Positions 38,011 through 60,651 of a DNA stretch of 64,000 nt are shown here, in pieces. The translations under genes and the position numbers were made by a program. Position 1 is the first letter of the stretch. Each line of letters starts with the position of its first letter. Origin of the DNA: Bacteroidota bacterium (GTDB lineage Bacteria > Bacteroidota > Bacteroidia > Cytophagales > Cyclobacteriaceae); the NCBI GenBank assembly GCA_018266055.1, contig JAFDYT010000002.1:468081-532080 (forward strand). Direction: 5' to 3'. The notes beneath the pieces were generated by a model. It saw nothing but the letters and a program-made list of their open reading frames with translations. It ran no database searches and was not told where the DNA came from.

Positions 38011-39309
38011 ATGTCCGCTGAACTAAAACGAACACTCTCCCCGCTGATGGTTTGGGGACTTGGTGTTGGTTATGTTATCTCCGGCAATTATTTCGGGTGG
38101 AACCTGGGCCTTGAAAAGGGTGGTACCCTCGGCATGGCTATTGCGCTTTTCTTCATCATTGTACTGTACGTAACGTTTACCTTCAGCTACACCGAGCTTG
38201 CTTGTGCGATCCCCAAATCAGGTGGCGCATTTGATTATGCCAAGCGAGCCCTTGGCGACAACATTGGGTTCATCGCCGGCATGGCGCAAAACATCGAATT
38301 CATTTTCGCACCGCCAGCCATCGCCTTTGCGTTAGGCTCGTACTTCAACATATTTTTCCCCGCGATACCCGTTGTTGTCATTGCTATAATCGCCTACATC
38401 GTCTTTTTTTTATTGAATGTGGCCGGCGTCAAAGTAGCGGCAGTTTTCGAATTGGGCGTCACTTCCCTTGCCGTTGCCGCCGTTTTTCTATTTTGTGGAA
38501 TTACCTTTCAGCACTTTGAATTTTCTCACTTGACGCAAAATGCATTTCCACATGGATGGGACGGTGTGTTTGCCGCGGTGCCCTTTGCAATCTGGTTCTT
38601 CCTAGGAATCGAAGGCGTCGCCAATCTGGCGGAAGAAACCATCAACCCGAAACGTACTATCCTGCTGGGTTTCGGCTCGGCAATTTTTACGCTGGTAGTG
38701 CTGTGTTTGCTCACGTTCACCAGTTCCATTGGCATCGCCGGTTGGGAGGCCATTGTTTTCAAACCTGACGGCACCACCTCTGACTCTCCGTTGCCACTGG
38801 CCATGGCCCATATTGTAGGAGAAGGCAATTGGCTTTATCAGCTTTTAATTACCGTTGGATTGTTTGGCTTAGTAGCTTCGTTTCACGGACTGATGCTTGC
38901 CGCAGGACGCTCCACCATGGAGTTTGGACGAGCAGGATATGCCCCGGCCATCCTCGGAAATGTGCATGCCCGCTTTCAAACACCGGCCAACGCTTTATTG
39001 CTAAACATGTTGATTGGAATCGTTGCTCTTCTTACAGGAAAAACCGGAGAGATCATCACCATTTCCGTATTTGGCGCCCTTACATTGTACATCATTTCGA
39101 TGATTTCCTTACTTAGGCTTCGCAAAACGGAACCCAATCTGGCAAGGCCTTTCCGCGTGCCGGCTTTTCCTTATTTTCCAATCCTGGCGCTGGCTATTGC
39201 CTCCTTTTCCTTTGTGGCGATGGCCGTGTATAACCTGAGGTTGGTGCTCATCTATTTCGTAATTCTTGCACTAAGTTTTGCCCTGTTTACTCTAAAAAAG
39301 AAAAAGTAG
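38011..39309 (+). CDS. eat: Ethanolamine permease-like APC transporter
   Basis: The 432-residue, 12-helix transporter shows the signature of the ethanolamine permease branch of the APC superfamily: W-G-L-G-V-G-Y-V-I-S-G-N-Y-F-G-W-N, G-G-A-F-D-Y-A, and E-G-V-A-N-L-A-E-E. The substrate assignment rests on resemblance and the nearby GS-like ligase. It precedes a histidine kinase. Together with the GS-like ligase at 41068 and the operon at 57415-60651 it could start an amino-alcohol degradation route. Confidence 0.85.
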   Translation: MSAELKRTLSPLMVWGLGVGYVISGNYFGWNLGLEKGGTLGMAIALFFIIVLYVTFTFSYTELACAIPKSGGAFDYAKRALGDNIGFIAGMAQNIEFIFAPPAIAFALGSYFNIFFPAIPVVVIAIIAYIVFFLLNVAGVKVAAVFELGVTSLAVAAVFLFCGITFQHFEFSHLTQNAFPHGWDGVFAAVPFAIWFFLGIEGVANLAEETINPKRTILLGFGSAIFTLVVLCLLTFTSSIGIAGWEAIVFKPDGTTSDSPLPLAMAHIVGEGNWLYQLLITVGLFGLVASFHGLMLAAGRSTMEFGRAGYAPAILGNVHARFQTPANALLLNMLIGIVALLTGKTGEIITISVFGALTLYIISMISLLRLRKTEPNLARPFRVPAFPYFPILALAIASFSFVAMAVYNLRLVLIYFVILALSFALFTLKKKK

Positions 39310-39335
39310 AGTATCTTGGTTGATCAATTGTGTCA

Positions 39336-40640
39336 ATGGCTGGCAAAAAATCCAAGGTTTCCTCACTTCAATCTGTCCGAAAGGAATTAAAGACTCTCAA
39401 GTCGACAACCAAATCGGCCGTAAAAAAGCTGAGCGAGGCTTCTTCCCAAAAAGGAGGTAAAGCATTGTCCTCCCTCGTAGCTCAGACCAGCAAACGTCAA
39501 ACCAAACAGGTTGATTCACTCACCAAAAAAATAGAAGAACTTAACCAGAAATTCGAACAGGAGCTCACGCGAAAGACTAAAACCTTACGGGATAAAGTAC
39601 GGAAACTGGAGCAGCTTAAAGACAGCGCGGCGGCAAACACCTACTTATTAGAATACAAGCGCAAAGACTTGTTGTTGCAGTCGGAAGAGCTTCAGAATTT
39701 CAACGAAGAAATGCAACGCAAGAACGAGGAGCTGCTGGCTCAAAAAGAACAGATTGCGGGTGAGATTGAAACGCTGCGTAAAATGCACGAAGAAATCCTG
39801 GATAAGAAGAACGAACTGGAAGAAAAATCCAATGCGCTGCTCGATCAAGCGGATTACCTTGAAGAAGCCAATAAGGTAATCACCCTGATGCATCAGGAAT
39901 TGAAAGAACAGAAAGAGCAAATCGAAAGTAAAAACAGCGAGCTGCTTAACCTGAATCTTGAAAAAAATAACCTGATCGGGATTGTTGCCCACGACCTGAA
40001 AAGTCCGCTCAATCAAATCAAAGGGCTCACTTCTCTGATCAAGATGACTGCCAAAGACATTGATCCGGAAACGGCAAATATTTTAGGGATGATTGAGGGA
40101 AGTACGCACCGAATGAGTGACATGGTTTCTAAAATTCTGGACATTGAGGCCATTGAATCAAAAAAATTGAACCTTACTATTCAACGTATAAATCTTGCTG
40201 AGATACTGCGTACGATTACAGATCGGTTTGCCCTTGAAGCCAGTAACAAACAAATCAAATTGCACTTCGATCAGTCTTCGCCTTTGTACATCGACGCCGA
40301 CGCAGGCTACATCAATCAGATTTTTGAAAATCTCTTCTCAAATGCGATCAAATTTTCTCCTTCGGGTAAAAATATTTTCATCGCACTTAAACATCAAAAT
40401 GGAAATGTCACGGCCATGGTGAAAGACGAAGGACCGGGCATGACCGACGACGATAAGAAAAAGCTTTTCAACAAATATCAGAAGCTAAGTGCCCGCCCCA
40501 CAGCTAACGAATCGTCTACCGGTCTTGGCCTTTCGATTGTAAAAAAATTCGTGGAAGACATGAACGGAAAAATCTGGTGTGAGAGTGAGACAGGAAAGGG
40601 AGCCGCTTTCTTTGTTCAGTTTACGAATTCCGGGAACTGA
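39336..40640 (+). CDS. Cytoplasmic coiled-coil sensor histidine kinase
   Basis: The 434-residue kinase lacks membrane helices and any recognised sensor domain. Residues about 1-210 are Lys/Glu/Gln-rich coiled coil (L-T-K-K-I-E-E-L-N-Q-K-F-E-Q, E-E-L-L-A-Q-K-E-Q-I). The H-box is I-V-A-H-D-L-K-S-P-L-N-Q-I. The ATP domain has N-L-F-S-N-A-I-K-F-S, D-E-G-P-G-M and T-G-L-G-L-S-I-V-K-K. No response regulator is adjacent. I use ATG 39336; a GTG six bases earlier is also open. It may sense internal partners through the coiled coil. Confidence 0.93.
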   Translation: MAGKKSKVSSLQSVRKELKTLKSTTKSAVKKLSEASSQKGGKALSSLVAQTSKRQTKQVDSLTKKIEELNQKFEQELTRKTKTLRDKVRKLEQLKDSAAANTYLLEYKRKDLLLQSEELQNFNEEMQRKNEELLAQKEQIAGEIETLRKMHEEILDKKNELEEKSNALLDQADYLEEANKVITLMHQELKEQKEQIESKNSELLNLNLEKNNLIGIVAHDLKSPLNQIKGLTSLIKMTAKDIDPETANILGMIEGSTHRMSDMVSKILDIEAIESKKLNLTIQRINLAEILRTITDRFALEASNKQIKLHFDQSSPLYIDADAGYINQIFENLFSNAIKFSPSGKNIFIALKHQNGNVTAMVKDEGPGMTDDDKKKLFNKYQKLSARPTANESSTGLGLSIVKKFVEDMNGKIWCESETGKGAAFFVQFTNSGN

Positions 40641-40699
40641 CTCTTCTTTTTGAAATCATAAAAGTCGTAACTTTAAAAATTGACTTAAGAAGTTACGTT

Positions 40700-41035
40700 A
40701 TGAAATCTGAAACATCAAAAATTGCATTCCACATTGTATTGATCCTCGCGCTGCTGTGGTTCATGTACATTTTCAAAGTGCTGTCCGAAGAATCGCACTC
40801 TATTTACATCGCCTATAAATCGCATTACGATTCGCTTGCCGCCAACACTGGGTTTCAGCAAATGCCTGCACCTTTGAAAAACGGATCAGCGCATATCAAT
40901 ACCACATTGGCCAAGCACCATATCATTTCTTTTGAAGCCTATACCATCGCAGTGATTCTTTCAGGCGCCGTCATCGCGGTGCTTCTCTTTCAAACGATAA
41001 AACTCATTCGCAATAAGAATAAGGCCGAAGCCTGA
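40700..41035 (+). CDS. Two-helix membrane hypothetical protein
   Basis: This 111-residue protein has an N-terminal helix (I-V-L-I-L-A-L-L-W-F-M-Y), a roughly 50-residue loop probably facing the periplasm, and a C-terminal helix (A-V-I-L-S-G-A-V-I-A-V-L-L-F) ending in Arg/Lys-rich residues. It lies between the kinase and the GS-like ligase on the same strand. No family recognised; a signal partner for the kinase is conceivable but unsupported. Confidence 0.72.
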   Translation: MKSETSKIAFHIVLILALLWFMYIFKVLSEESHSIYIAYKSHYDSLAANTGFQQMPAPLKNGSAHINTTLAKHHIISFEAYTIAVILSGAVIAVLLFQTIKLIRNKNKAEA

Positions 41036-41067
41036 TCACAACGAATTCAAAAAAATCCAAACCACGC

Positions 41068-42423
41068 ATGACACGCCGCCAGATTATCGATTATGTTAAA
41101 GCGCATCCTTCGCAAAAAGTAAAAATTGCGTACTCGGATATCGATGGAATCCTACGCGGAAAATATATTTCATCGGAAAAATTTCTTTCTATCGCTGACG
41201 GCGGTACTACGTTTTGCGATGTCATTTTTGGTTGGGATGCCAATGATGTAGCGTACGACAATGTGAAATTTACAGGTTGGCATTCGGGCTACCCTGACGC
41301 GCCGGCACAGCTTGACCTCGATACATTTAGAAAAATTCCGTGGGAAAATGACGTGCCTTTTTTTCTAGGCGAGTTGGTGGATGCAAAAGGAAATGCCTCG
41401 TATGTGTGCCCAAGGCAGCTGTTAAAAAAAGTGTTGAACGACGCTAGTCGTGCAGGCTTCACACCATTTTTCGCGCAAGAGTTTGAATGGTTCAACTTTG
41501 CAGAAACTCCGCAAAGCGCCCGCGACAAAAATTTCACCAACCTCACGCCTCTCACGCCGGGTATGTTTGGTTACTCGGTGCTTCGCACTACATTACAAAA
41601 TCCATTTTTCACAGACCTGTTCGATCTGTTGAAAAAATTTGGCGTTCCCGTCGAAGGGCTACACACCGAAACGGGCCCCGGTGTTTTGGAAGCGGCCATC
41701 AGTCACTCAGGAATTCTTGAAGCTGCTGACAGAGCTTTACTATTCAAAACGGCGGTGAAAGAAATTGCGTACCGGCATGGCATCATGGCCACGTTTATGG
41801 CGAAGATCAGTGAAAATCTTCCTGGTTGTGGCGGGCATGTTCATCAAAGTTTGTGGGACAAAGCCTCGAAGAAGAATCTTTTTCACGACGAAAAAGACAA
41901 ACACCGCATGAGCGCGATAATGAAAAGTTACATCGCGGGACAATTGTATTGCCTGCCTCATCTGCTGCCGATGTATGCGCCTACCATCAACAGCTACAAG
42001 CGATTGGTGGAAGGAGCCTGGGCGCCAACCACACTGACGTGGGGCATCGACAACCGCACGGTAGCCTTGCGTGTACTCAATGGCAGCGCTAAATCGTGCC
42101 GGCTTGAAACACGGGTCATCGGCGCGGATGTGAACCCCTACCTGGCGATGGCCGCAGCGCTTGCCTCGGGCCTGTACGGAATAAAAAAGAAATTGAAACT
42201 TCAACCCGAATCCATTGGCAATGGCTACCGCGATTACTCGCACGGTGTGTTGCCCGGCACTCTTCATGAAGCCACGGAGCGAATGAAACACTCTCCGGTT
42301 GCGAAAGAAATTTTAGGCAAACAGTTTACAGAACATTTTGTACAAACACGCGAGTGGGAATGGCGCCAACACCTGAAGTCAGTTACCGACTGGGAGATGA
42401 AACGGTATTTCGAGATTATCTAA
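41068..42423 (+). CDS. Glutamine synthetase-like gamma-glutamyl-amine ligase
   Basis: The 451-residue protein keeps the GS fold and ATP/glutamate machinery: F-A-Q-E-F-E-W-F (metal Glu), L-H-T-E-T-G-P-G, G-G-H-V-H-Q-S (metal His), L-T-W-G-I-D-N-R-T-V-A-L-R and R-L-E-T-R-V-I-G-A-D-V-N-P. The start (K-I-A-Y-S-D-I-D-G-I-L-R-G-K) and length match the PuuA/GlnA4-type enzymes, which glutamylate polyamines or ethanolamine, rather than housekeeping GlnA. The APC permeases upstream support an amine substrate. The amine itself cannot be read off the sequence. Confidence 0.88.
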   Translation: MTRRQIIDYVKAHPSQKVKIAYSDIDGILRGKYISSEKFLSIADGGTTFCDVIFGWDANDVAYDNVKFTGWHSGYPDAPAQLDLDTFRKIPWENDVPFFLGELVDAKGNASYVCPRQLLKKVLNDASRAGFTPFFAQEFEWFNFAETPQSARDKNFTNLTPLTPGMFGYSVLRTTLQNPFFTDLFDLLKKFGVPVEGLHTETGPGVLEAAISHSGILEAADRALLFKTAVKEIAYRHGIMATFMAKISENLPGCGGHVHQSLWDKASKKNLFHDEKDKHRMSAIMKSYIAGQLYCLPHLLPMYAPTINSYKRLVEGAWAPTTLTWGIDNRTVALRVLNGSAKSCRLETRVIGADVNPYLAMAAALASGLYGIKKKLKLQPESIGNGYRDYSHGVLPGTLHEATERMKHSPVAKEILGKQFTEHFVQTREWEWRQHLKSVTDWEMKRYFEII

Positions 42424-42430
42424 AATATCC

Positions 42431-42682
42431 ATGATCAAATGCTCTACCGGCAAACGCGTGTACCTTACCGAAGCATTGGCGGAAGATGCATTGCTTGATG
42501 CACACGGCCGGCATCAGTACGCCGGCACCGGGCCAGTTGCCTTTTATCGGTGCGACGATTGTGGGTATTATCACTTCACCAGCAAAGGGCCTATGAATGA
42601 AAAACTCGCCAAACTTCTGGCCAGTGGAAAGTTAAAACTTCAGCAGGAAGCCAACCATTGGGAAAAGAAACTGAAACGGTGA
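42431..42682 (+). CDS. Small zinc-ribbon-like hypothetical protein
   Basis: The 83-residue protein has a Y-R-C-D-D-C-G-Y-Y-H-F-T pattern, a possible half zinc ribbon, with a further Cys at the N-terminus (M-I-K-C-S-T-G-K). The C-terminus is helical and basic. It begins 7 bases after the GS-like gene and converges with the next gene. I know similar small Bacteroidota proteins without assigned function. Confidence 0.78.
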   Translation: MIKCSTGKRVYLTEALAEDALLDAHGRHQYAGTGPVAFYRCDDCGYYHFTSKGPMNEKLAKLLASGKLKLQQEANHWEKKLKR

Positions 42683-42687
42683 AACCC

Positions 42688-44718
42688 TTACGGTTTGCGC
42701 CACTGCTGTTCCAATAATTTTATAAAATAACCACCTACCACGCTTCTCGCCTGAAAGCCTACTTGTTTTCCATCGGTGGTTTCATGCCAGTCATTAAGCG
42801 GTACACGCGTCGGAGTTTCCATGGCAAACTTATAAATCGGATCGATCAGCGCTTCGAAGTCCTTTCTATCCGACGCCAGTGTGGCCGTCCACACGATCCA
42901 GTCCGACTTGGTGTACGTCTTGCGGCTATCGAGTGGGAGTCCAAACGCATTTTGTTTGGTGAGGTAATACTTCACTTCTTTTGAATAGATGTCGGCAGGA
43001 AACAGATTCAGATTTAATAATTTATCCCACACCAGATTGTACTTCTGGCTCCAGGAATTCTTGTTATCAAAAGTGAGTGCAAAGTGGTCACCGGCATCGG
43101 CCATCGGCGCCCACCGTGCGGCGTAGTCTTTTGCGATAGTCTTGTATTTTATTGCCGTTTCTTTTTCACCAAGCATGTCCGCCATTTTCGCGTACGCGCC
43201 AATGCCTACAATCGCCTTCATCGACAAGTTGGCGTTGCGCGCCAGGTGCCCGGCAAAATCGTCTGTGCAAAGTTGATTGGCCGGATCAAATCCATCTTTC
43301 ACTAAAAATTCAACCCACTGCGAAATTGTTTTCCAATGTGCTTTGGAATAATTGGCGTTGCCCTCGGCTTGTGCGATGGCGCCGCAAAGAATAATCATAT
43401 TGCCAGCTTCCTCCACGGGCATATCTTCCGGATAAGTTTGTCCGTTGGCTTGCGGATACGTGCCCAGGTCATGAGCGGGGAAAGGCTTGGTCCATTTACC
43501 ACTTTCGCTGAAGTAAAAAATTCCGTTGAGCATTCCTTTCAGAAAGTCAGGATTGTACGCCAGAAAAAGTGGCGCGGAAGGATACGTCACGTCCACGGTG
43601 TTGATTGACCCATTGCTAAAATTCTCTTTTGACAAGAACAGGATTTCTCCCTGTGGGCTTTTCACCAGTTTGTGCGCCGCGATAGCCTGCCGGTAGGCGA
43701 TGGCACATAATTCAGCGTATTTTTTTCCGCCCGCCTTTTCAGCGGAGGCAAACATCGCCTGGTCAAATTCATCGCAACGTTTTTTTATTGATGAATAGTC
43801 GGTCGCGGCTTTAGCCAGAGCTTGTTCTATGGTAGTACCGTCCAGCTTCCACCATGCCTTGAGGTTCTGATTAAAATATTGAATCGAATACTCGTCGTCG
43901 TATGCGAGTAGTAGTTGGCGTTGCGCTGGCTGTTGACCAATTTTTCCGAGGTCAAACGACTGGCTCATCCAAAGGTCTGTTCCCTTCTTTGCTTTTTCTT
44001 CCACGCCGACTTTGCCGTTGGTTCCAAATTGTGAAAGCATGGAAGTAAGCGTGGTGATTGCGGCTGCTCCGTTTTCCTTATCGCTTGCCGCGAGGTAGGC
44101 GTATCCCCAGTTGATCCGCACGTCGTCGCCTTTTTTGGCGAGAACCGGTTGGGCAGTGGTTCCCGCTTTAATCATCGAAAGATGTGAAGCTGCTGAAGTA
44201 CTTGCCGTAATTTCTTCGCCTGGCACATCCACTGCTACCTGTGTTGACTCACCCACCGCGATCTGCACGTTGTGCGGTTGTTGATCTGTCGACTTAACCT
44301 GAATAGTCAGGTATGAAACAGGACGCGACAACAATTTTAAGTCGCTCATGAGCAAAGGCGAAAGAAATTCGAATGACACTTCTGCCTTGCCGCAAGCCAC
44401 CACATACCTGGTTTGGGTAGCGGTGATCACTACGCTCTGCTGGATGCCTGCAGCGACCTTCGCAGCCTGATCTTCAGCCTTTCCCAGAAAAGAATAAACC
44501 GTTCCGTCCACCCGAATCAAGCCGACCAATGAATGGGGTTTTCCAGTCCAGTGGCGAGTGGGCTGCGAGGTAATATCATCGCTAAAGGCCCAGATGCTGA
44601 AGTATGGATCATGGGTCACCAGAGGATAGGCTGGCGCCTTAGCAGTTTGTGCCCGAAGGGAAATAAAAAGAAGAAAAAAAGCGAGGGTTGAGAATGGTTT
44701 GCAGAATTTCATGATCAT
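42688..44718 (-). CDS. Glutaminase A-like exported protein (DUF4965/DUF5127/DUF1793 type)
   Basis: The 676-residue protein has a signal peptide ending near S-L-R-A-Q-T. It then has the family start P-L-V-T-H-D-P-Y-F-S-I-W, with S-D-D-I-T-S and R-H-W-T-G. The C-terminal alpha/alpha barrel contains A-Y-N-P-D-F-L-K-G-M, H-D-L-G-T-Y-P-Q-A-N-G-Q, M-P-V-E-E-A-G-N-M and R-V-P-L-N-D-W-H-E-T. Fungal GtaA is the namesake; in Bacteroidota many relatives probably act on glycans instead. So secreted hydrolase is the safe call. Confidence 0.88.
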   Translation of the reverse strand: MIMKFCKPFSTLAFFLLFISLRAQTAKAPAYPLVTHDPYFSIWAFSDDITSQPTRHWTGKPHSLVGLIRVDGTVYSFLGKAEDQAAKVAAGIQQSVVITATQTRYVVACGKAEVSFEFLSPLLMSDLKLLSRPVSYLTIQVKSTDQQPHNVQIAVGESTQVAVDVPGEEITASTSAASHLSMIKAGTTAQPVLAKKGDDVRINWGYAYLAASDKENGAAAITTLTSMLSQFGTNGKVGVEEKAKKGTDLWMSQSFDLGKIGQQPAQRQLLLAYDDEYSIQYFNQNLKAWWKLDGTTIEQALAKAATDYSSIKKRCDEFDQAMFASAEKAGGKKYAELCAIAYRQAIAAHKLVKSPQGEILFLSKENFSNGSINTVDVTYPSAPLFLAYNPDFLKGMLNGIFYFSESGKWTKPFPAHDLGTYPQANGQTYPEDMPVEEAGNMIILCGAIAQAEGNANYSKAHWKTISQWVEFLVKDGFDPANQLCTDDFAGHLARNANLSMKAIVGIGAYAKMADMLGEKETAIKYKTIAKDYAARWAPMADAGDHFALTFDNKNSWSQKYNLVWDKLLNLNLFPADIYSKEVKYYLTKQNAFGLPLDSRKTYTKSDWIVWTATLASDRKDFEALIDPIYKFAMETPTRVPLNDWHETTDGKQVGFQARSVVGGYFIKLLEQQWRKP

Positions 44719-44911
44719 TCAGTTTTACAACAAGGTCGAAAAGATCAAGGTAACTTCAAATTCGATTCGTCATCCAAAAAATTATTTGTGCGGATAATTC
44801 TCCTTTTGAGGTAATCCTGTCGATACGATAAAATAGGTTTACTTTTATAGCCGATCCTCATAAAGGGTTTAGTGAGGTCTTCTCTTATTTTTACAGACTA
44901 AATATTCGGTC

Positions 44912-45289
44912 ATGATCAATCGCTACGCGGGAGAGCTTCACATCAACCCGATACGGGTGCTACGAAACGACGACTTTAATAACGATGGCCGGATCGCCAA
45001 CATCGAAGCGACATTGAAAGAGGCCGCTGATCTTAACCAAAAAATTGGTCAACGCCTGCATCAACTTCAGGACTGGCTTGCCGCTAAAAAATTTCCGGGC
45101 TCACTCCAGTTCCACTTCGCCGAAGGCGGCTATATCGGGATGAAAGGCCTGGCCGATGAGCAGCTGAAAGAGCTGGCGCAACTGGGTATCATCGAATTGT
45201 TTGATTTCGCCACCGACAAAGACTGGGTGAAAAAACACGGCCATTTATTTGGGCTGATCTGGGAAGACGGCCGTGCTGTAGAAATCTGA
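44912..45289 (+). CDS. Hypothetical protein
   Basis: The 125-residue protein has no signal peptide or membrane segment. It mixes acidic and basic residues (M-I-N-R-Y-A-G-E-L-H, helical E-A-T-L-K-E-A-A-D-L-N-Q-K-I-G, then G-G-Y-I-G-M-K-G-L-A). I recognise no domain. Codon use is like the neighbours. The 193-base region upstream (44719-44911) has only AT-rich candidate promoter stretches with no consensus match. Confidence 0.7.
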   Translation: MINRYAGELHINPIRVLRNDDFNNDGRIANIEATLKEAADLNQKIGQRLHQLQDWLAAKKFPGSLQFHFAEGGYIGMKGLADEQLKELAQLGIIELFDFATDKDWVKKHGHLFGLIWEDGRAVEI

Positions 45290-45348
45290 GGCCTCGGTGG
45301 GCCAAATCATCGGTTCCATCTTATCCCTGAATTTCCTACCTTTGGAGC

Positions 45349-45495
45349 ATGGTTCAAGAGCTCCTTTTATTATTGGCGGCTTTAGGCGCAGTGTTCTACC
45401 TCGGAAGGATGGTTTACAAGTCTTTTCAGGCTAAAAATGCGTGCTCCACAGGATGCGGCAAGTGCGCTGAAAGTATTGAGAAAAGTAAAGCCTGA
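45349..45495 (+). CDS. FeoB-associated Cys-rich membrane peptide
   Basis: A 48-residue frame begins at ATG 45349. One membrane helix (L-L-L-L-A-A-L-G-A-V-F-Y-L-G-R-M) is followed by A-C-S-T-G-C-G-K-C-A-E-S. This is the pattern of the small Cys-rich peptides often found beside FeoB ferrous iron transporters. No feoAB lies in the window. The stop is 41 bases before ilvA. It could bind a metal near the inner membrane; function is unproven. Confidence 0.75.
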   Translation: MVQELLLLLAALGAVFYLGRMVYKSFQAKNACSTGCGKCAESIEKSKA

Positions 45496-45536
45496 TCGCC
45501 CATCGAAAGTTAATTTCCCACGCTATTTCTATTTCA

Positions 45537-46769
45537 GTGATGATCAATGTTGACGAAGCCTACAAGGTGCTGCAAGGTGTAGCGACGAAAACGCCATTAC
45601 AGTTCCATAAAAAACTTTCAGAAAAATTTCAGGCTGAAGTCTATCTGAAGCGCGAAGACCTGCAGGTGGTGCGCTCGTACAAAATCCGAGGCGCCTACAA
45701 CCTGATTCAAAGCCTCACGGCCGAGCAGCGAAGCCGCGGCGTAGTGTGCGCCAGCGCCGGCAACCATGCACAGGGTGTAGCCTTCTCTTGTCGTATGCTC
45801 AATATTCCCGGCACGATTTATATGCCGGCCATCACCCCCAAACAGAAAATCAATCAAGTGAAAATGTTTGGCAACGGCGTGGTCGAAATCGTTTTGATCG
45901 GCGATACATTCGACGAATGTCAGGCTCATGCCCTCGCTTTTTGCAAAGAAAATAATCGCACGTTTATTCCACCTTTCGATCACATCAAAGTAATCGAAGG
46001 TCAGGCTACAGTAGGTAAAGAAATTCTAGATGAACTGAAAGACATCGACTACCTGTTTGCGCCTCATGGCGGCGGCGGCTTGACGGCTGGTGTAGGGAGT
46101 TATTTCAAGTCCGTTTCTCCAAAAACAAAAATCATAGCGGTAGAACCGGAAGGCGCGCCTTCAATGAAAGAAGCGCTCAAAGCTGGCAAGCCTGTGCTGC
46201 TCGATACGATTCAACGCTTTGTCGATGGTGCCTCTGTAAAAAAAGTAGGCGACTTGACATTTGAAATAGGCCAGAAAGTTGTCGACGACATTTTGCTCGT
46301 TCCCGAGGGGAAAGTATGTACTACCATTTTACAACTCTACAACGAAGACGCCATCGTAGCTGAGCCCGCCGGTGCGCTCACCATCTCCGCGCTCGATCAG
46401 TATGCCGAGAAAATAAAAGGTAAGCGTGTGGTGTGCATTGTGAGCGGTGGCAACAACGACATCGACCGGATGCAGGAAATAAAAGAGCGCTCGCTTTTGT
46501 ACGAAGGCCTCAAGCACTATTTCATCGTACGCTTTGCGCAACGCCCCGGTGCACTGAAAGAATTTTTGATTTCCATCCTCGGCCCCAACGACGATATCGT
46601 GCGCTTTGAGTTCATCCAAAAAAATAATAAAGAGAACGGTCCGGCTTTGATTGGTATCGAATTAAAATCGAGAGAAGATTATATGCTTCTCATTTCAAGG
46701 ATGAACGAGTTCAAGCTCAATTACACCGAGATCAATCAGAACGAAAACTTGTTCGAGTACCTGGTTTAA
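45537..46769 (+). CDS. ilvA: Threonine ammonia-lyase (biosynthetic)
   Basis: The 410-residue PLP enzyme deaminates threonine to 2-oxobutyrate, the first step of isoleucine synthesis. The Schiff-base Lys is in S-Y-K-I-R-G-A-Y-N, and C-A-S-A-G-N-H-A-Q-G-V-A and G-G-G-G-L-T-A-G are typical. The C-terminal 80 or so residues (Y-F-I-V-R-F-A-Q-R-P-G-A-L-K-E-F) form one ACT-like regulatory domain, so feedback by branched-chain amino acids is likely. No other ilv genes adjoin. Confidence 0.94.
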   Translation: MMINVDEAYKVLQGVATKTPLQFHKKLSEKFQAEVYLKREDLQVVRSYKIRGAYNLIQSLTAEQRSRGVVCASAGNHAQGVAFSCRMLNIPGTIYMPAITPKQKINQVKMFGNGVVEIVLIGDTFDECQAHALAFCKENNRTFIPPFDHIKVIEGQATVGKEILDELKDIDYLFAPHGGGGLTAGVGSYFKSVSPKTKIIAVEPEGAPSMKEALKAGKPVLLDTIQRFVDGASVKKVGDLTFEIGQKVVDDILLVPEGKVCTTILQLYNEDAIVAEPAGALTISALDQYAEKIKGKRVVCIVSGGNNDIDRMQEIKERSLLYEGLKHYFIVRFAQRPGALKEFLISILGPNDDIVRFEFIQKNNKENGPALIGIELKSREDYMLLISRMNEFKLNYTEINQNENLFEYLV

Positions 46770-46772
46770 TCC

Positions 46773-51845: not shown

Positions 51846-51848
51846 AGC

Positions 51849-52991: not shown

Positions 52992-53032
52992 ACTTCTTAG
53001 AGAACGAAAGATTTCTCTGGCATTCTAAAGTC

Positions 53033-53064: not shown

Positions 53065-53086
53065 CTCGTGCGAAACCAAAATTTTA

Positions 53087-54415
53087 TTAAACGAATCGGG
53101 AAATCAGGTTTTCAAAATACTCCTGCTGGCCGCTGATCTGCTCAGGCTCGCCCTTCTTCAACGCCAGTTGCTGCAAATCTTTGAGCGACAGTTTGCCTTG
53201 CTCAAACTGCTTGCCTTTTCCGTTATCAAACGAAGCGTATCGGTTTTTCAATAGTTGATTGTAAGTGCCATCTTCCAGGATTGCGTTGGCCGCAAGCAAC
53301 GCCCGTGCGAACGAATCCATACCGCCAATGTGCGCGTGGAAAATATCGGCCAGGTCGGTGGAGTTACGACGTGTCTTCGCATCAAAATTTATTCCGCCGG
53401 TTTTGAATCCGCCAGCCTTCAAGATCACTAGCATGGCTTCTGTAAGTTCGTAAACGTTATTTGGAAACTGGTCGGTATCCCATCCATTTTGATAGTCGCC
53501 GCGGTTGGCATCCATGCTCCCCATCAAGCCATTGTCAGCAGCCACTTGCAACTCATGTTGAAAAGTATGCTGCGCCAACGTGGCATGATTCACTTCGATG
53601 TTTAATTTAAAGTCGTCCATGAGGTTATGCTCACGCAAAAAAGAAATCACTGTAGCAGCATCGTAGTCATACTGATGTTTCGTGGGCTCCATAGGTTTGG
53701 GTTCGATCAGGAACGTTCCTTTGAATCCATTTCTTCTTCCGTAGTCGCGGGCCGCGTGAAGAAATTTAGCCATGTGCTCTTGCTCGCGTTTCATGTTGGT
53801 GTTGAGTAGCGAAAGGTAGCCCTCGCGACCGCCCCAGAAAACATAGTTAGATCCGCCAAGAGCAACAGTAGCATCAATGGCATTTTTTACCTGAGTCGCG
53901 GCGTAGCAAACTACGTCGAAGTTAGGGTTGGTGGCGGCGCCATTCATGTAGCGCGGATTTGAAAAAAGATTAGCTGTTCCCCAAAGCAACTTCACGCCCG
54001 ACTCTTTTTGCTTTTGCTCCGCGTAGTTCACCATCGTAAATAATCGCTTTTCCGATTCTTTCAACGTCGCGCCTTCTTCTACAATGTCAAAGTCGTGAAA
54101 GCAATAAAAAGGAATTCCGATTTTGGTGATGAACTCAAATGCTGCATCCATTTTGTCGTGAGCGCGCTGCATCGGATCGGTTGCTTTCAGCCAAGGAAAC
54201 ATTTTGGTAGGTGCGCCAAACGGATCGCCGCCGTTGCCGCAGAAGGTGTGCCAGTACGCCACTGCAAAACGCAAGTGTTGTTCCATGGTCTTCTTGCCTA
54301 CTTTGCGGTTGGCGTCGTAGTATTTAAAAGCAAGCGGATTGTCAGAATCCTTGCCTTCATAGCGTATCTTTTTAATTCCCTTGAAAAAGGTTTGACTACC
54401 GGTAGTTACTTTCAT
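53087..54415 (-). CDS. xylA: Xylose isomerase
   Basis: XylA interconverts D-xylose and D-xylulose. The 442-residue TIM barrel has F-C-F-H-D-F-D (catalytic His-Asp pair), [11 protein letters not shown] (metal and ring-opening residues), the N-V-E-A-N-H-A-like block (N-I-E-V-N-H-A-T-L) and M-D-A-N-R-G-D. The start M-K-V-T-T-G and length suit the class II enzymes. It follows xylB by 11 bases on the same strand. No xylose transporter or XylR lies in the window. Confidence 0.97.
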
Positions 54416-54426
54416 ATCACTGGAGT

Positions 54427-55917
54427 TTAAATCAGGTTAAGTTCGTGCAATTTATTTTTCCATCGAATGTACGCTTCCTTATACAATTCTGCTTTTTCTT
54501 TTACAGGAATAATTTCGCTGCGTTTATTGAGGCCGGCCAACGCCTGAGGAATTGAGTCGTAGATTCCTGCACCAACGCCGGCACCAAGCGCTGCGCCAAT
54601 CGCTCCATTGGTATCGTACAATTCCAGTTTCACATTCATTGTGTTCACAAATGCTTCGCGAAACACTGGGCTAAGAAATAAATTACCATCGCCAGCCTTT
54701 ATTGTTTGCGTACTCACCCCCATCGCCGACAAAATTTCAAATCCGTAGTTGAATGCAAAGGCAATTCCTTCCTGCGCCGCACGAAATAGGTGCGCCTGCG
54801 AATGTCGGTTGAAATCCAGACCGAGCATAGATGCCTGGCTGATCTTGTTTTCCAGAATCCGCTCGGCGCCATTACCGAAAGGGATGAACGACAATCCATC
54901 AGAGCCTACTTTCACTGACGCTGCAAGCGCGTTCATATTTTCATACGAAGAGCTGCTTACATTTTTCCGCAGCCAGCTATTCAAAATACCCGTACCGTTT
55001 ACACAAAGTAAAACCCCATTTCGTTTTTGGTCTTTGCGATCATTCACATGCAAAAAAGTGTTGACGCGAGATTTCGGGTCAAAGACATCGCGATCGGTTA
55101 CTGAATACACCACGCCTGACGTTCCGCCGTTGGCAGCCGCTTCACCTGGATTTACTACTCCCAACGCAAGTGCATTGTTTGGCTGATCGCCGGCTCTATA
55201 ACTTACCACCGTCTCGGTAGATAAGCCGAGTTCCTCTGCAATCTTGTTGGTTAATTTTCCTTGTGGAGAAAATACTTCGGCTTGTTCGCAAAGCAAACTG
55301 GTATCGAAGCCAAAATAATCTGTGAGTTTTTTTGAAACTGACTGTGCAGGGAAATCCCAAAAAATTCCTTCTGACAATCCGGTGCTTGTAGTTAGCGCGT
55401 TACCTGTCAGCTTCATTGCGATGTAATCGCCGGGCAGCATAATTTTATAAATCCTTTTGTAAATCTCTGGCTCGTGTTGCTGCACCCATTTAAGTTTTGA
55501 CGCCGTGAAATTTCCAGGCGAATTCAAAAAGTGAGGCAGACAATATTCGCCACCCAAATCGCGAAAAGCCTTGTTCCCGATTTCGACGGCACGGCTATCG
55601 CACCAAATGATAGAAGAGCGAAGAGATTTCAACTCTTTATCGATAAGCACAAGCCCATGCATCTGATAGCCGATGCCTATGGCTCGCACTCTTTTTGGGT
55701 CAACATTTTGCAAACATTTTTTAATACAAAGCTGCGTGTGATGCCACCACAGTTCGGGGTCTTGTTCTGCCCAACCCGTGTGCGGCGCTTCGATGGCCAT
55801 CTCCACGTCGGGAGACTGTGCATGGGCCACCGGCCGGCCGGAAGTCACATCAACCAATGCCGCCTTCACTGAAGAACTGCCAATGTCAAGGCCTAAAAGG
55901 TAATCTTGGTTCATCAT
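54427..55917 (-). CDS. xylB: Xylulokinase
   Basis: XylB phosphorylates D-xylulose for the pentose phosphate pathway. The 496-residue FGGY kinase has [10 protein letters not shown] at the N-terminus, the sugar-site blocks Y-Q-M-H-G-L-V, W-C-D-S-R-A and the C-terminal A-A-N-G-G-T-S-G and K-A-G-D-G-N motifs. It is upstream of xylA. The strong promoter (55940-55968) lies 23 bases before the ATG. Confidence 0.95.
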
Positions 55918-55939
55918 ACTCTGTAAGATAGCCGAAATT

Positions 55940-55968
55940 CAAAATTATCTCTACGTTTTTCATACAAA
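55940..55968 (-). promoter_or_regulatory. Promoter of xylBA
   Basis: On the minus strand TTTG (55968-55965), 17 bases, then TAATTTTG (55947-55940) match TTTG-N17-TAnnTTTG. The remaining 290-base gap to ahpC contains the two repeat elements listed separately and no other gene. Confidence 0.75.
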
Positions 55969-55970
55969 TA

Positions 55971-55992
55971 GTTTGTTAACCAAACAGGTTTG
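55971..55992. promoter_or_regulatory. Triple GTTTG/CAAAC half-sites upstream of xylBA
   Basis: GTTTG (55971-55975), CAAAC (55981-55985) and GTTTG (55988-55992) are alternating half-sites, giving an inverted repeat with a TTAAC spacer and a second with an AG spacer. They abut the -33 box of xylBA. This could be the operator of a sugar-responsive regulator. Confidence 0.5.
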
Positions 55993-56052
55993 TCTCGTTT
56001 GGCGAAAGAAAAATTTGTAGGATACTATTTTGCAAAATGATGGTGTGATGTT

Positions 56053-56076
56053 TTAGGAATAAAAATATTTTCCTAA
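56053..56076. promoter_or_regulatory. Inverted repeat upstream of ahpC
   Basis: TTAGGAA (56053-56059) and TTCCTAA (56070-56076) are perfect 7-base arms around an AT-rich 10-base spacer, 131 bases before ahpC. It does not match the PerR or OxyR consensus. It may serve either neighbour. Confidence 0.35.
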
Positions 56077-56207
56077 CGAAAATCATTTCACTCGTTTGCA
56101 CTTGAACGTAAATTCGAAATGAAATTTTTACTGCGAACAATCCATTTCACAGTGTGTTATCCGTAGTAAATTGCAAACCTATTTTTAAAACCTAACGTCA
56201 AATTAAA

Positions 56208-56765
56208 ATGAGCAAAGGATTATTATCGGTGGGACAACAGTTCCCCGAATTCAAAAAGAAAGCTGTAGTTTCCCTGGAGAAGGGAAAAGAGTTTTACGAT
56301 ATCTCATCGGAAGAACTGATCAATGAGGAAGGACGCTGGACGGTGATGTTCTGGTGGCCTAAGGATTTCACCTTTGTGTGCCCTACAGAAATTGCTGAAT
56401 TCAATAAAAACTTTGGAGAGTTTCGCGACCGCAATACACATTTGATCGGCGCTTCTACCGATTCAGAGTTTGTGCACCTTGCGTGGAGAAACAACCACGA
56501 AGATCTGAAAGGATTGAAGTTCCCCATGCTGGCCGATACTTCAAAGTCACTGGCAGAAGATCTTGGCATTTTAGAAGCGAACGAGAAGGTTGCCTATCGC
56601 GCTACTTTCATCATCGATCCGCAAGGTGTTGTTCGCTGGGTGTGCGTTAACGACTTGAGTGTGGGCCGCAATGTGAAAGAGGTTATCCGCGTGCTGGATG
56701 CGCTGCAAACCGACGAGCTGTGCCCATGCAATTGGGAAAAAGGAAAAGAGACGATTAAAGTGTAG
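56208..56765 (+). CDS. ahpC: Peroxiredoxin, AhpC type
   Basis: The 185-residue two-Cys-like peroxiredoxin has the peroxidatic block D-F-T-F-V-C-P-T-E-I and a C-terminal cysteine pair in E-L-C-P-C-N-W-E-K-G. It reduces hydrogen peroxide and organic peroxides. It is followed after one base by an AhpD-like partner, the arrangement of mycobacterial-type AhpC/AhpD, in which AhpD reduces AhpC. No AhpF is adjacent. Confidence 0.95.
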   Translation: MSKGLLSVGQQFPEFKKKAVVSLEKGKEFYDISSEELINEEGRWTVMFWWPKDFTFVCPTEIAEFNKNFGEFRDRNTHLIGASTDSEFVHLAWRNNHEDLKGLKFPMLADTSKSLAEDLGILEANEKVAYRATFIIDPQGVVRWVCVNDLSVGRNVKEVIRVLDALQTDELCPCNWEKGKETIKV

Positions 56766-56766
56766 T

Positions 56767-57357
56767 ATGGAGACGATGACTTACTCGGAATCTACTCAGG
56801 AATTTCTAACTCTTCTAAATACTCCCGCGGATTTTCAAACGGAAGCGTTGGATCTATTAGAAGCAGGCAAGTCGCGCTACCTTGCCGACCTTAAAATCAA
56901 TTTCAAAAACTCCTTTGAAAGCGAGCATCTTACTAAAAAGGAAGTTTCCCTTTTAGGTGTGGCGTTGGCATCGAACAATAACAACACGCCGCTGTTGAAA
57001 TTTTTTGAAGGCAATGCCAAACAGGAAGGCGCATCGGCCGAAGAGATTGCCGAAGCCATAGCATGTGCATCGCTGCTTAGCGCCAACAATGTGTTGTATC
57101 GCTTTCGCCATTTTGCCAAAAAGGAAAAGTACAATGAGATTCCGGCACGAATCAAAATGAACATTATGGGGCGGCCAGTAAACGGCAAAGAGTTTTTTGA
57201 GTTGATTAGTCTTGCTGTGAGTGCCGTCAATGGCTGCGAGCGTTGTGTGTCGTCGCACGAGGCTTCATTGATCGAGTTGGGCAGCAGAGAAGAGCGCGTG
57301 TTCGAAGCAGTTCGGCTTGCGGCGGTAATCACCAGCGCCTCAAAAATTATTTACTGA
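56767..57357 (+). CDS. AhpD-like carboxymuconolactone decarboxylase family protein
   Basis: From ATG 56767 (M-E-T-M-T-Y) the protein has 196 residues. The family's active site N-G-C-E-R-C-V-S-S-H-E (C-x-x-C-x-x-x-H) is visible near residue 158, with an upstream acidic helix. This is the disulfide reductase that regenerates AhpC. It starts one base after the ahpC stop. A frame reading into ahpC is open upstream (56698), but that would overlap unlikely sequence, so I reject it. Confidence 0.93.
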   Translation: METMTYSESTQEFLTLLNTPADFQTEALDLLEAGKSRYLADLKINFKNSFESEHLTKKEVSLLGVALASNNNNTPLLKFFEGNAKQEGASAEEIAEAIACASLLSANNVLYRFRHFAKKEKYNEIPARIKMNIMGRPVNGKEFFELISLAVSAVNGCERCVSSHEASLIELGSREERVFEAVRLAAVITSASKIIY

Positions 57358-57381
57358 GCTAGAACTTTTAATTTCATCGAA

Positions 57382-57417
57382 AAGGCTCTGGTCAGAAATG
57401 GTCAGAGCCTTTTTTTA
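57382..57417 (+). terminator. Rho-independent terminator of ahpC-ahpD
   Basis: AAGGCTCTG (57382-57390) pairs with CAGAGCCTT (57403-57411) over a 12-base loop, followed by a T-run. The ALDH stop codon on the other strand (57415-57417) lies at the end of this run. Confidence 0.88.
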
Positions 57418-58779
57418 TCCCCGTAAGTGATACGCCTTTGGTTTGGTAAAAGCACGCAAACCGGCATGCGACAGCGTTGCTCCAAATCCGGAATGGTTTC
57501 TTCCGCTCCACGGCACCGCCGCACTCACACGATCGCAGCAATTCCAGTAGCCGGTACCTGCGTTGATCTGTTGTAATATGTCTTCAGCGCGTTTTTGATT
57601 TTGAGAATAGACCGCCGCTGTAAGGCCGTATGCTGTATCCTTCATCAGCGCCATTGCCTCGGCGTCGTCTTTCACCTTCATAATGCCAATCACAGGACCA
57701 AACGATTCCTCACGCATTATTTCCATCGTATGATTTACATTCACCAGCACCGTCGGTTGAAAGAAATACCCTTTGCCGTCAACGGGTTTGCCTCCGGTTA
57801 AAATGTTAGCTCCCTTTTTCACGGCGTCGTCCACTTGCGCCTGCAATACATTGAGCTGATCTTTTCTGCTAAGTGGACCAAGATAAATTCCTGCCTCAGT
57901 AGGTTTTCCCTGTTTCCATGATTTTACTTCATTTACAAACTCGTCAACGTAGGCGTCGTAAATTTTTTCGTGAACATAAATGCGCTCCACGGCGCAGCAA
58001 CTTTGTCCGTTGTTGTAAAAGGCGCCGTCGGCAGTGCCTGCTGCTACCGATTTTATATCGGCTACATCGTCCGCTACATACAACGGGTCTTTGCCGCCCA
58101 GCTCACACTGACACGGCACCATCTTCGCAGCTACCCTTTCGTAGATGTACTTGCCGGTCTTATACGATCCGGTAAAGAAGTATCCATCAAAAGAAGTATT
58201 GAGCAATAGTTCGCCGACCTCGCGGGCGCCGATAGCCACATGAAAAACGGAAGCGGGAACTCCGGCTTCTTTCAACAGCTTTTCGATTTCAAGACCAGTG
58301 AGTGACGAAAATTCCGAAGGCTTATACATCACTGCGTTGCCGGCAAGCAAAGCAGGCACAAACACATTCACACCTACAAGGTAAGGGTAGTTCCACGCCG
58401 AAATATTGGCCACCACCCCGAGTGGTTCATACGCAATTCTCTCCGTCAGCCCGGGTTGTTCAACCATCGTCTCGTCAGAGAGATATTTTGCGGCGTTGCA
58501 TGTAAGCCACTCAATTCGCGCACACGCTCCGTTGATTTCGTTGCGCGATTGCTGCAAGGGTTTGCCTACTTCAGAAGTAAGAACGGCTGCGAGCGGTTCG
58601 ATATTCGCTTTTAAAAGCGCTGCAAATTTTTGCAAAACTTCGATCCGGTTTGTCAAGGGAGTTTTGGCCCACGATGGCTGAGCCGCCTTCAGCTCTAAAA
58701 ATTTCTTACCAATTGAGGTCGCGTTGTCCTCGGCAATATCGTTGATGATTTCCTCGGTGGCTGGGTTAATGATTTTCAT
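57415..58779 (-). CDS. NAD(P)-dependent aldehyde dehydrogenase
   Basis: The protein has 454 residues from ATG 58779. Its Rossmann motif is F-F-T-G-S-Y-K-T-G. The general-base Glu is in C-E-L-G-G-K-D-P and the nucleophile in G-Q-S-C-C-A-V-E-R. It resembles the succinate-semialdehyde/gamma-glutamyl-aldehyde type. In the operon ADH, GATase1 hydrolase, ALDH it is the last gene. It could oxidise the aldehyde made by the neighbouring dehydrogenase to a carboxylate. The substrate is inferred from context. Confidence 0.92.
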   Translation of the reverse strand: MKIINPATEEIINDIAEDNATSIGKKFLELKAAQPSWAKTPLTNRIEVLQKFAALLKANIEPLAAVLTSEVGKPLQQSRNEINGACARIEWLTCNAAKYLSDETMVEQPGLTERIAYEPLGVVANISAWNYPYLVGVNVFVPALLAGNAVMYKPSEFSSLTGLEIEKLLKEAGVPASVFHVAIGAREVGELLLNTSFDGYFFTGSYKTGKYIYERVAAKMVPCQCELGGKDPLYVADDVADIKSVAAGTADGAFYNNGQSCCAVERIYVHEKIYDAYVDEFVNEVKSWKQGKPTEAGIYLGPLSRKDQLNVLQAQVDDAVKKGANILTGGKPVDGKGYFFQPTVLVNVNHTMEIMREESFGPVIGIMKVKDDAEAMALMKDTAYGLTAAVYSQNQKRAEDILQQINAGTGYWNCCDRVSAAVPWSGRNHSGFGATLSHAGLRAFTKPKAYHLRG

Positions 58780-58807
58780 GAACAAAAGTTGATATAGTGA
58801 ACAACAC

Positions 58808-59506
58808 TCACGAGAGCTTGGCGCAATGCTCGAGAAAGCGTTGTTTGATATTTTTTACCAATGGGCTTTGTTGATCCAGCATTCGTTCGGGATGCCATTG
58901 CACTAACAAAAGGAACGCACCGCTACCTGGTTTTTTTCTTTCAATGGCCTCCACAACACCATCCGGCGAAACTGCACTTGTTACCAAACCATTCCCAATC
59001 CGGTCGGCGCTCTGGTGGTGAGCGCTGTTAATTTCTCCCTGGTCAAGCGTAGTGATTTCTCCGAGCAAACTACTTTTATCGATCAACGCCTGGTGGTATT
59101 TATCTTTTCCTTCACGGAATTTTGAGTGACTGAATTTTCCAAAGGTCGGCAGATCAGGGATAAGAGTTCCTCCAAAAAAAACATTGGCTATTTGAAGACC
59201 ACGGCATATTCCCAGCAACGGCAAATTATTTTTTTGCGAATACTCCGTCACCAGCAACTCAAACTCGTCGCGCTGCTGATCCATGTCGTCATCGCAATAA
59301 GGCACAAGTTCGGGGCGATTATAAAATTGCGGGTGCACATCTTCACCACCGGTAAGCAAAATGCCATCGCATTTTTTTATGTCTTCAAAATTGGGAAGGT
59401 GATAGCCCAGGCGAACCACCTCCACGTTTGGTTCAGCCAGCATCCACTTTTCATAGTTGGGATACTTCTCGCAATCCGTAATGCCGATAGTTACTTTACG
59501 ACTCAC
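58808..59506 (-). CDS. Class I glutamine amidotransferase-like gamma-glutamyl hydrolase (PuuD-like)
   Basis: The 232-residue peptidase C26 protein has the nucleophile block L-G-I-C-R-G-L-Q and the His-Glu pair V-Q-W-H-P-E. It also carries I-L-L-T-G-G-E-D-V-H-P, typical of PuuD-type gamma-glutamyl-gamma-aminobutyrate hydrolases. These free the amino acid from its gamma-glutamyl carrier. Its ATG overlaps the ADH stop (ATGA). The absence of a synthase partner supports hydrolysis rather than amidotransfer. Confidence 0.9.
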   Translation of the reverse strand: MSRKVTIGITDCEKYPNYEKWMLAEPNVEVVRLGYHLPNFEDIKKCDGILLTGGEDVHPQFYNRPELVPYCDDDMDQQRDEFELLVTEYSQKNNLPLLGICRGLQIANVFFGGTLIPDLPTFGKFSHSKFREGKDKYHQALIDKSSLLGEITTLDQGEINSAHHQSADRIGNGLVTSAVSPDGVVEAIERKKPGSGAFLLLVQWHPERMLDQQSPLVKNIKQRFLEHCAKLS

Positions 59507-60651
59507 AACGCTTTCAAATAAAGTTGTTTGAAGTCCTCGCGCGACACAGGCTTTGGATTATTCGGATGCGCAAAATCGGCAATCGCCAGGTCAGCTAGTG
59601 TTTCGATATGCTCTTGCTTCACGCCGATATCGCGAAGCTTATGCGGTATGTTTACTTTCGAATTCAAGTCAAACAAATACCTCACTACCGCTTCACCGTT
59701 TTCTTCTTTCAATTCCAGAGTGCGGGCTATTCGCTTGAATTTATCTTCAAAACCTTTGATGTTAAACTCCATCCCGTAAGGAATGTTCACCGCGTTAGCC
59801 AGGCCATGATGCGTATCGAGCAGCGACGACAGCGGGTGCGCTAGTGAATGCACCACGCCCAATCCTTTTTGAAAAGCGACAGCACCCATCAGCGAGGCAA
59901 TCAGCATTTTACTTCGCGACTCAAGGTCAGGTTTGTTCACTGCCTTTTCAAGCGATTGGTGAATCAGCGAAATTCCTTCCAGCGCAATACCCTCGCACAT
60001 GGGGTGCGGCATTTTTGCTACATACGCTTCCATATTGTGCGTGAGTGCATCCATGCCGGTGGCTGCCGTGATGAATGCAGGAAGCTCCATCGTGAGCATC
60101 GGATCTGCAAACACAATTTTCGCCAGCAGCTTAGGTGAGAATAATATTTTCTTCTGATGGGTTTCATCATCAGCAATGATAGCGCTGCGTCCCACTTCAC
60201 TTCCTGTGCCAGCCGTAGTCGGGATCGTGATGAAGTGCGGAACCTCGTTGGTGACGTACACATCGCCGCCAATCAAGTCATCGTATTTGAAAAGATCCTC
60301 GCGATGGTTTACGCGCAATACAATGGCGCGGGCCACATCAATCGCAGCACCGCCGCCAATTCCGACGATGGAATCCCTATTCGTTTGGTCGAATGCATCT
60401 GTGCCTTTGTACACATCCGACTTCACCGGGTTTTTATGAATATTGTGAAATACTTCTACCGACAAATTTTTCTTTTGAAGATCCGCTACGATCGCTTTGA
60501 AAAAGCCGAGCTGAGCCACCGTCGGATCGGTTACAATCAGCGGGCGCGACAGTTTATTTTTAATAAGGTAATCCCCCAGTTCACTGACGGCGCCAGCGCC
60601 AAAGCGAATCGTGGTGGGAAAATTGTATTGATAAATTTTATCGAAAGTCAT
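59503..60651 (-). CDS. Iron-containing alcohol dehydrogenase
   Basis: The 382-residue type III ADH has the nucleotide motif G-I-G-G-G-A-A-I-D and T-T-A-G-T-G-S-E. The metal-binding blocks are M-D-A-L-T-H (Asp), H-S-L-A-H-P-L (His) and D-T-H-H-G-L-A-N-A (His). The family oxidises or reduces short alcohols with iron or zinc. As the first gene of the operon it could oxidise an alcohol group of a gamma-glutamylated amino alcohol. No close substrate match is claimed. Confidence 0.93.
   Translation of the reverse strand: MTFDKIYQYNFPTTIRFGAGAVSELGDYLIKNKLSRPLIVTDPTVAQLGFFKAIVADLQKKNLSVEVFHNIHKNPVKSDVYKGTDAFDQTNRDSIVGIGGGAAIDVARAIVLRVNHREDLFKYDDLIGGDVYVTNEVPHFITIPTTAGTGSEVGRSAIIADDETHQKKILFSPKLLAKIVFADPMLTMELPAFITAATGMDALTHNMEAYVAKMPHPMCEGIALEGISLIHQSLEKAVNKPDLESRSKMLIASLMGAVAFQKGLGVVHSLAHPLSSLLDTHHGLANAVNIPYGMEFNIKGFEDKFKRIARTLELKEENGEAVVRYLFDLNSKVNIPHKLRDIGVKQEHIETLADLAIADFAHPNNPKPVSREDFKQLYLKAL

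Follow-up and report, generated by a model that had tools for sequence, protein, structure and literature searches.

By analyzing a 64,000-nucleotide stretch of contig JAFDYT010000002.1 (hereafter the window; positions 468,081 to 532,080 of the forward strand, assembly GCA_018266055.1, Bacteroidota, Cyclobacteriaceae), we found five genes that very probably constitute an EutBC-independent gamma-glutamyl route with ethanolamine as its main substrate. This assignment draws on protein families, gene order, co-occurrence across genomes and active-site residues, and it is from sequence that all the reactions and the substrate are predicted. Two of the genes are located on the plus strand, namely an APC-family ethanolamine permease (38011..39309) and a glutamine synthetase (GS)-like gamma-glutamyl-amine ligase (41068..42423), proposed to be a gamma-glutamylethanolamide synthetase. 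About 15 kb away, on the minus strand, are an iron-containing alcohol dehydrogenase (ADH; 59503..60651), a C26/PuuD-type class I amidotransferase hydrolase (58808..59506) and an aldehyde dehydrogenase (ALDH; 57415..58779), for which we propose the functions gamma-glutamylethanolamide dehydrogenase, gamma-glutamylglycine hydrolase and gamma-glutamyl-aminoacetaldehyde dehydrogenase, respectively.

According to this proposal, the permease would import ethanolamine, which the ligase would join, with ATP, to the gamma-carboxylate of glutamate. The resulting gamma-glutamylethanolamide would be oxidized by the ADH to gamma-glutamyl-aminoacetaldehyde and by the ALDH to gamma-glutamylglycine, from which the hydrolase would release glycine together with glutamate for recycling. 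With the glutamate tag, the reactive aldehyde would stay bound, and the route would bypass free acetaldehyde and the B12-dependent lyase. Ethanolamine is the common head group of a major membrane lipid, and its use ties lipid turnover to the supply of carbon and nitrogen. The eut route requires vitamin B12 (EutBC) and, in some bacteria, a microcompartment. If the proposal is true, the tagged route would explain how these Bacteroidota could use ethanolamine without EutBC, and proteins now carrying the family labels glutamine synthetase, amidotransferase and 4-hydroxybutyrate dehydrogenase could be annotated more sharply. A preliminary description of the window had already placed the set in a genome without EutBC; EutB gave no match in the window genome (4.79 Mb in 21 contigs) and, among 14 control genomes, matched in E. 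coli alone, so that this part stands for EutB, EutC not having been searched.

All five open reading frames (ORFs), and the families named for them in that description, were recovered from the ORF list and from hidden Markov model (HMM) scores. The permease reaches 415.5 bits against TIGR00908, above the curated cut-off of 381.75, and is thereby of the ethanolamine type, as had been proposed, with transport predicted; it is identical in G248, a genome of the same genus. The ligase matches PF00120 (331.6 bits), the ADH PF00465/PF25137 and the ALDH PF00171 (442.8 bits), the start of the latter at 58779 being an ATG that lies two codons into the program-called ORF 57415-58785. The hydrolase (PF07722, 148.5 bits) is by far the top of five PF07722 matches in the genome, keeps the Cys of the GICRG motif and the His-Glu of QWHPE, and has 7d4r as its closest solved structure by sequence. 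Since the ADH and hydrolase genes overlap by four bases and the gap from hydrolase to ALDH is 28 bases, these three genes look like an operon, in agreement with the preliminary description.

Gene order and co-occurrence in related genomes

At least 567 candidate loci in named genomes were confirmed by ligase alignment, and the best 80 of them were kept. The five genes form one same-strand run in 53 of these 80, in the order permease, ligase, iron ADH, C26 hydrolase and ALDH; the order of permease, ligase, ADH and ALDH was computed, and the position of the C26 gene between ADH and ALDH was read from the listing for all 53. Ligase and ADH are separated by a median of 35 bases, and the genera with an intact run include Pedobacter, Chitinophaga, Aquirufa, Emticicia, Parapedobacter, Olivibacter, Flavisolibacter and Rhodocytophaga. 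The neighborhood is more than chance, because 53 of 80 related loci hold all five genes in one order, and a chance neighborhood was rejected on this gene order. The order of the run is also compatible with the pathway and supports the reading of the genes as one. The 27 other loci include two that are rearranged (L049, L101), one lacking a permease nearby (L050), one with the ALDH on the opposite strand at the edge of the fetched stretch (L039) and 16 with a contig end close by; in L057, one of these 16, the 5.6 kb before the ligase hold no permease. A side observation is the five-gene run of L062 (CAJCIQ010000077.1), on a contig titled Beijerinckiaceae and with a ligase 74% identical to that of the window, which may reflect either a transfer or the mis-binning of a contig from Bacteroidota.

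Taken on its own, the window could be read as holding two unrelated loci, one with a surplus glutamine synthetase and the other an operon for 4-hydroxybutyrate or for alcohols and aldehydes in general. The separation of about 15 kb and the opposite strands agree with this, as do the top NCBIfam matches of the ADH (4-hydroxybutyrate dehydrogenase, 336 bits) and the ALDH (succinic semialdehyde dehydrogenase, 372 bits), both under their cut-offs (500 and 521, respectively). It is nevertheless highly improbable, given that the genes are contiguous in 53 of the 80 relatives and that, at the cut-offs used, every genome with an ADH match also had the ligase, both among the 196 of the family and among the 118 at order level. 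The preliminary description had linked the two loci across the gap and had treated the hydrolase and dehydrogenases as parts of the same pathway; both points are borne out by their adjoining the ligase and permease in the 53 loci, and the former also by the distribution of the ADH.

Among the 196 family genomes, 59 contained a ligase match, of which 42 were of the window type (at least 59% identity, fragments included), 11 belonged to a second lineage (34-37%) and six to neither (46-57%). The ADH was found in 40 of the 42 genomes with a window-type ligase and in none of the other 154 (Fisher p 1e-39), and the ALDH in 39 of 42 and again none of 154 (p 5e-38). The permease, counted at identities of at least 61% (seven matches of 45-47% being excluded), was present in 39 of the 42 and in 17 of the remaining 154 (p 4e-24), and 11 of these 17 carry the second ligase lineage. 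Within the genus of the window, all four genes occur in two of five genomes and none in the other three at these cut-offs. Separately, three genomes (L133, L134 and L135) were seen to hold the permease (63-66%) with neither cassette nearby, and in a fourth, G245, the permease occurs without any ligase match.

The word "split" in the preliminary description suits the window genome and some others, the usual state being the intact run. In our model, a five-gene operon would have been broken in the window genome into permease-ligase on the plus strand and ADH-hydrolase-ALDH on the minus strand. The order in L049 resembles that of the window, with an AraC regulator, a deaminase, a TIM-barrel gene, a second APC transporter, the permease, the ligase and a threonine dehydratase, continuing on the opposite strand with ALDH, hydrolase and ADH. 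L039 shares with the window the TIM-barrel gene, the transporter, the permease and the ligase, its opposite-strand ALDH being situated about 9.5 kb past the ligase. These two loci suggest that the split is older than the window genome; another genome of the same genus (L140) has the intact run. Other breaks are found in G150, where permease-ligase is on one contig and ADH-C26-ALDH on another (L136/L137), and in G201, where the ligase is on one contig and permease-ADH-C26-ALDH on another (L138/L139). Different lineages break the set differently yet retain it, which was counted in favor of one pathway.

Family and active site of the ligase

The ligase falls far below the cut-offs of the related families, with 226.1 bits against GlnA (glutamine synthetase type I, TIGR00653; cut-off 429.15), 220 bits against type III GS (469.6) and 213.4 bits against the PuuA-type gamma-glutamylputrescine synthetase (NF045547; 650). 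When aligned with E. coli GlnA it retains the residues for metal and ATP and most of those for glutamate, and Trp318 occupies the column of Glu327, a residue of the ammonium pocket. At this position, Phe331 is reported for the model of GlnA4 and Trp296 for PauA7 (PMC6529630). A Pro is found at the Asn264 column, where the other amine-type ligases compared also have a residue other than Asn, and a Phe at the Tyr179 column. Trp318, the low GS scores and two further GS-family genes in the genome led us to reject a plain glutamine synthetase. The closest solved relatives by sequence are 11zs and 5dm3, the latter with the entry title Csal_0679. AlphaFold modeled the ligase poorly (mean pLDDT 62.1, 9-row alignment), and the Foldseek search made with this model served for reading entry titles and is no more than consistent with a GS fold; likewise, the GS tree joins long branches, and its placements of IpuC and PuuA were not used.

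The families of the set also recall a Puu-type route for polyamines such as putrescine, with PuuA-, PuuC- and PuuD-like members all present. We consider this reading very doubtful, as the ligase misses the PuuA cut-off by a wide span and is 30% identical to E. coli PuuA, and as no amine oxidase turned up in the scan of window ORFs around the two loci, to which the search for PuuB was confined. In the relatives, an alcohol dehydrogenase follows the ligase and the usual gaps are too small for an oxidase gene. The ADH suits an amino alcohol substrate and not putrescine; the putrescine route was rejected on the low PuuA score and on this alcohol dehydrogenase, found where an amine oxidase would be required. 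Of the comparison with GlnA4 and PuuA called for in the preliminary description, the part on PuuA gave the low identity stated above, and the part on GlnA4 relies on the residues published in PMC6529630. The putrescine chemistry that the description had borrowed was abandoned: the set instead matches a published ethanolamine gamma-glutamylation pathway, iron ADH (PF00465) included, as listed in PMC9397018.

A second cassette behind the same permease

A second cassette, consisting of a GS-like ligase, a short-chain dehydrogenase (SDR), an ALDH and a class I amidotransferase (GATase), i.e. GS-SDR-ALDH-GATase, was identified in 11 of the 196 family genomes (L131, L132, L148-L154, L156 and L157). 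All of these have the same permease type as the window (61-68% identity, one a fragment), and the ADH was matched in none. In the 11 fetched loci, the short-chain dehydrogenase and the class I amidotransferase are both present in all 11, and an ALDH of this type in nine (not found in L151 and L153); the permease is within the fetched stretch in nine, once as a partial match.

The ligase of this second lineage shares 48% identity with the ligase of an operon in Paracoccus denitrificans, which comprises an RpiR-type regulator, an N-formylglutamate amidohydrolase, a TRAP transporter, the ligase, an ALDH and an iron ADH. The best PDB match of the Paracoccus ligase is 5dm3 (603 bits), and that of the binding protein is 4uab (567 bits). 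The latter is Csal_0678, solved with ethanolamine according to PMC12410723, and its tag number adjoins Csal_0679.

A 34-row tree of the permeases places those of the second cassette at two positions among those of the first, and a single grouping of the nine second-cassette rows was rejected (approximately unbiased (AU) test, p 0.000352; log-likelihood 53.8 lower). The tested group was defined by ligase type, and a quick tree was known before the test. This quick tree, of 64 rows and leaving out about half of the named first-type loci, agrees with the interleaving. The two ligase types form separate clades in a quick tree with long outer branches, except for the first-type L145 (46% identical), which is found among plasmid references. 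Because the permeases interleave while the ligases form separate clades, the pairing of permease and cassette changed at least twice. The easiest way to understand this, and the one that the trees favor, is that both cassettes would handle the substrate of the permease. Since the two cassettes share one permease type and one of the ligase lineages is tied to ethanolamine, ethanolamine is favored as the shared substrate. The interchangeable cassettes also make the substrate testable, through a comparison of the two distantly related ligases that a single transporter family supplies. It is on balance probable that Bacteroidota have a widespread EutBC-free ethanolamine pathway in two interchangeable forms, with an iron-ADH cassette or an SDR cassette with an unrelated ligase swapped repeatedly (at least twice) behind a constant permease lineage.

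The same tagged oxidation could in principle act on another primary amino alcohol, such as 1-amino-2-propanol, alaninol, serinol or 3-aminopropanol, or on several. The ADH and ALDH would suit various amino alcohols, the ligase shares 41% identity with a plasmid-encoded protein that bears the annotation IpuC, gamma-glutamylisopropylamide synthetase, and the substrate of the closest plasmid-borne ligases is not known. We regard this as unlikely, in view of a permease that exceeds the ethanolamine equivalog cut-off and of the pairing of the same permease type with a ligase related to the Chromohalobacter salexigens lineage; ethanolamine is, moreover, the common lipid head group. For ethanolamine as main substrate, the use of the set in Bacteroidota for an ethanolamine-type amine, which the preliminary description had advanced, is supported, with ethanolamine itself as the exact substrate predicted from sequence.

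Assessment of the proposed ethanolamine route

A number of observations weigh against the ethanolamine route as proposed. With regard to the ligase, an Asp is still found at the D50 column, the identity to the ligase of the Paracoccus TRAP operon is just 36%, and the closest plasmid ligases (47-48%; Paracoccus versutus, Rhizobium, Burkholderia and Photobacterium) have no known substrate. The hydrolase shows low identity among relatives (27-63%). As for the counts, the ligase identity cut was chosen after the list had been seen, and the Fisher values are not corrected for common descent. In six of the 196 family genomes, a ligase of 46-57% identity is present with no match to the ADH. Seven of the 80 loci have full flanks and a ligase lacking a nearby ADH (L065, L066, L068, L070, L071, L103 and L107), and in L082, L092 and L095 no ADH is found in the 1.9, 3.3 and 7.8 kb after the ligase, respectively. 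At order level, 24 of 118 genomes had a ligase match and 12 an ADH match, all within the 24. Two of the 12 genomes with a ligase and no ADH carry the second ligase lineage (L037, L038); the other ten have ligases that are 49-64% identical. The co-occurrence expected from the preliminary description was consequently clear at family level and weaker at order level, where half of the ligase genomes (12 of 24) have the ADH.

Neighboring genes

A second APC-family amino acid transporter (36573..38003, plus strand; TIGR00911/TIGR00909-like, under cut-off) ends seven bases upstream of the permease. Copies more than 50% identical (77%) were seen solely in L039 and L049 among the fetched loci, and it is possibly, as a guess, a glycine or glutamate carrier. 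Between permease and ligase are a PnpS/PhoR-like histidine kinase (39330..40640, plus strand; PF00512/PF02518) and a small ORF (40700-41035) with no family match. The kinase was not found at this position in loci L016-L118 and L131-L145, neither it nor the small ORF was found in L039 or L049, and no response regulator was present among the scanned ORFs neighboring the kinase. A GtaA-type glutaminase gene (42688-44718) is convergent to the ligase, with no copy found in the fetched loci of relatives. The ADH operon begins 66 bases downstream of a DUF3467 gene, which itself follows rpoC on the same strand (59503-61041), and rpoC/DUF3467 had no matches in the fetched loci of relatives. No convincing regulator site common to the two loci came out of an inverted-repeat search around them.

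Comparison with known systems

A literature search at the level of titles and abstract beginnings, covering few subscription journals, returned no report of the pathway in Bacteroidota; PMC6529630 names Flavobacterium among ethanolamine users, without a pathway. The closest published counterpart is the pathway of Chromohalobacter salexigens (Csal_0678/0679), Agrobacterium and Phaeobacter sp. MED193, which likewise has a GS-like ligase, an iron ADH and an ALDH and yields glutamate and glycine (PMC9397018, PMC10132767). The set listed for ethanolamine gamma-glutamylation in C. salexigens consists of PF00120, PF00465, PF00171 and PF05013 (PMC9397018), and the operon of Phaeobacter sp. MED193 is raised in growth on phosphatidylethanolamine (PMC10132767). 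The C. salexigens pathway is called demonstrated in PMC10132767 and an in silico prediction in PMC6529630. It differs from the set described here in having a TRAP transporter and a PF05013 enzyme of the formylglutamate amidohydrolase type, in contrast to the APC permease and the C26 hydrolase (PF07722) of the window.

Outside Bacteroidota, ligase, ALDH and iron ADH are consecutive on plasmid 1 of Paracoccus denitrificans PD1222. A plasmid collection gave 1512 ADH records, and among the 15 listed (37-41% identity) at least seven have a match to a GS-like ligase no more than about 6 kb away, as judged from positions and annotations; such records come from Photobacterium, Shinella, Legionella lytica and Paracoccus denitrificans. 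Among the closest plasmid ligases, genes from Rhizobium and Burkholderia are grouped with ALDH genes and amidotransferase or gamma-glutamyl hydrolase genes. The ipuC-annotated cluster of the Paenarthrobacter plasmid pTC2 (isopropylamine route) also combines a GS-like ligase with neighboring genes for an ALDH and an amidotransferase, but additionally has a cytochrome P450, a ferredoxin and a short-chain dehydrogenase, and its ligase is the 41% identical protein mentioned above. The Puu pathway of E. coli shares the ligase, ALDH and C26 hydrolase families, with the amine oxidase PuuB in place of the alcohol dehydrogenase and with the distant PuuA as its ligase.

The GlnA4 cluster of Streptomyces (SCO1610-SCO1615) contains a ligase, a dehydrogenase, an ALDH, a putative ethanolamine/amino acid permease and a glutamine amidotransferase, but uses a short-chain dehydrogenase for the alcohol step and includes a regulator gene (PMC6529630). 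The GlnA4 ligase is published, the steps after it are described as predicted, and the Discussion of the same paper assigns SCO1615 to the formylglutamate amidohydrolase family. Judged by this published description, the GlnA4 cluster is similar in its genes to the second cassette of the Bacteroidota, that of L131 and the ten further loci. Overall, the comparison supports known chemistry in a new combination for a phylum in which we found no earlier report: an APC permease and a C26 hydrolase together with the iron ADH known from the proteobacterial version of the pathway, plus a second, interchangeable cassette.

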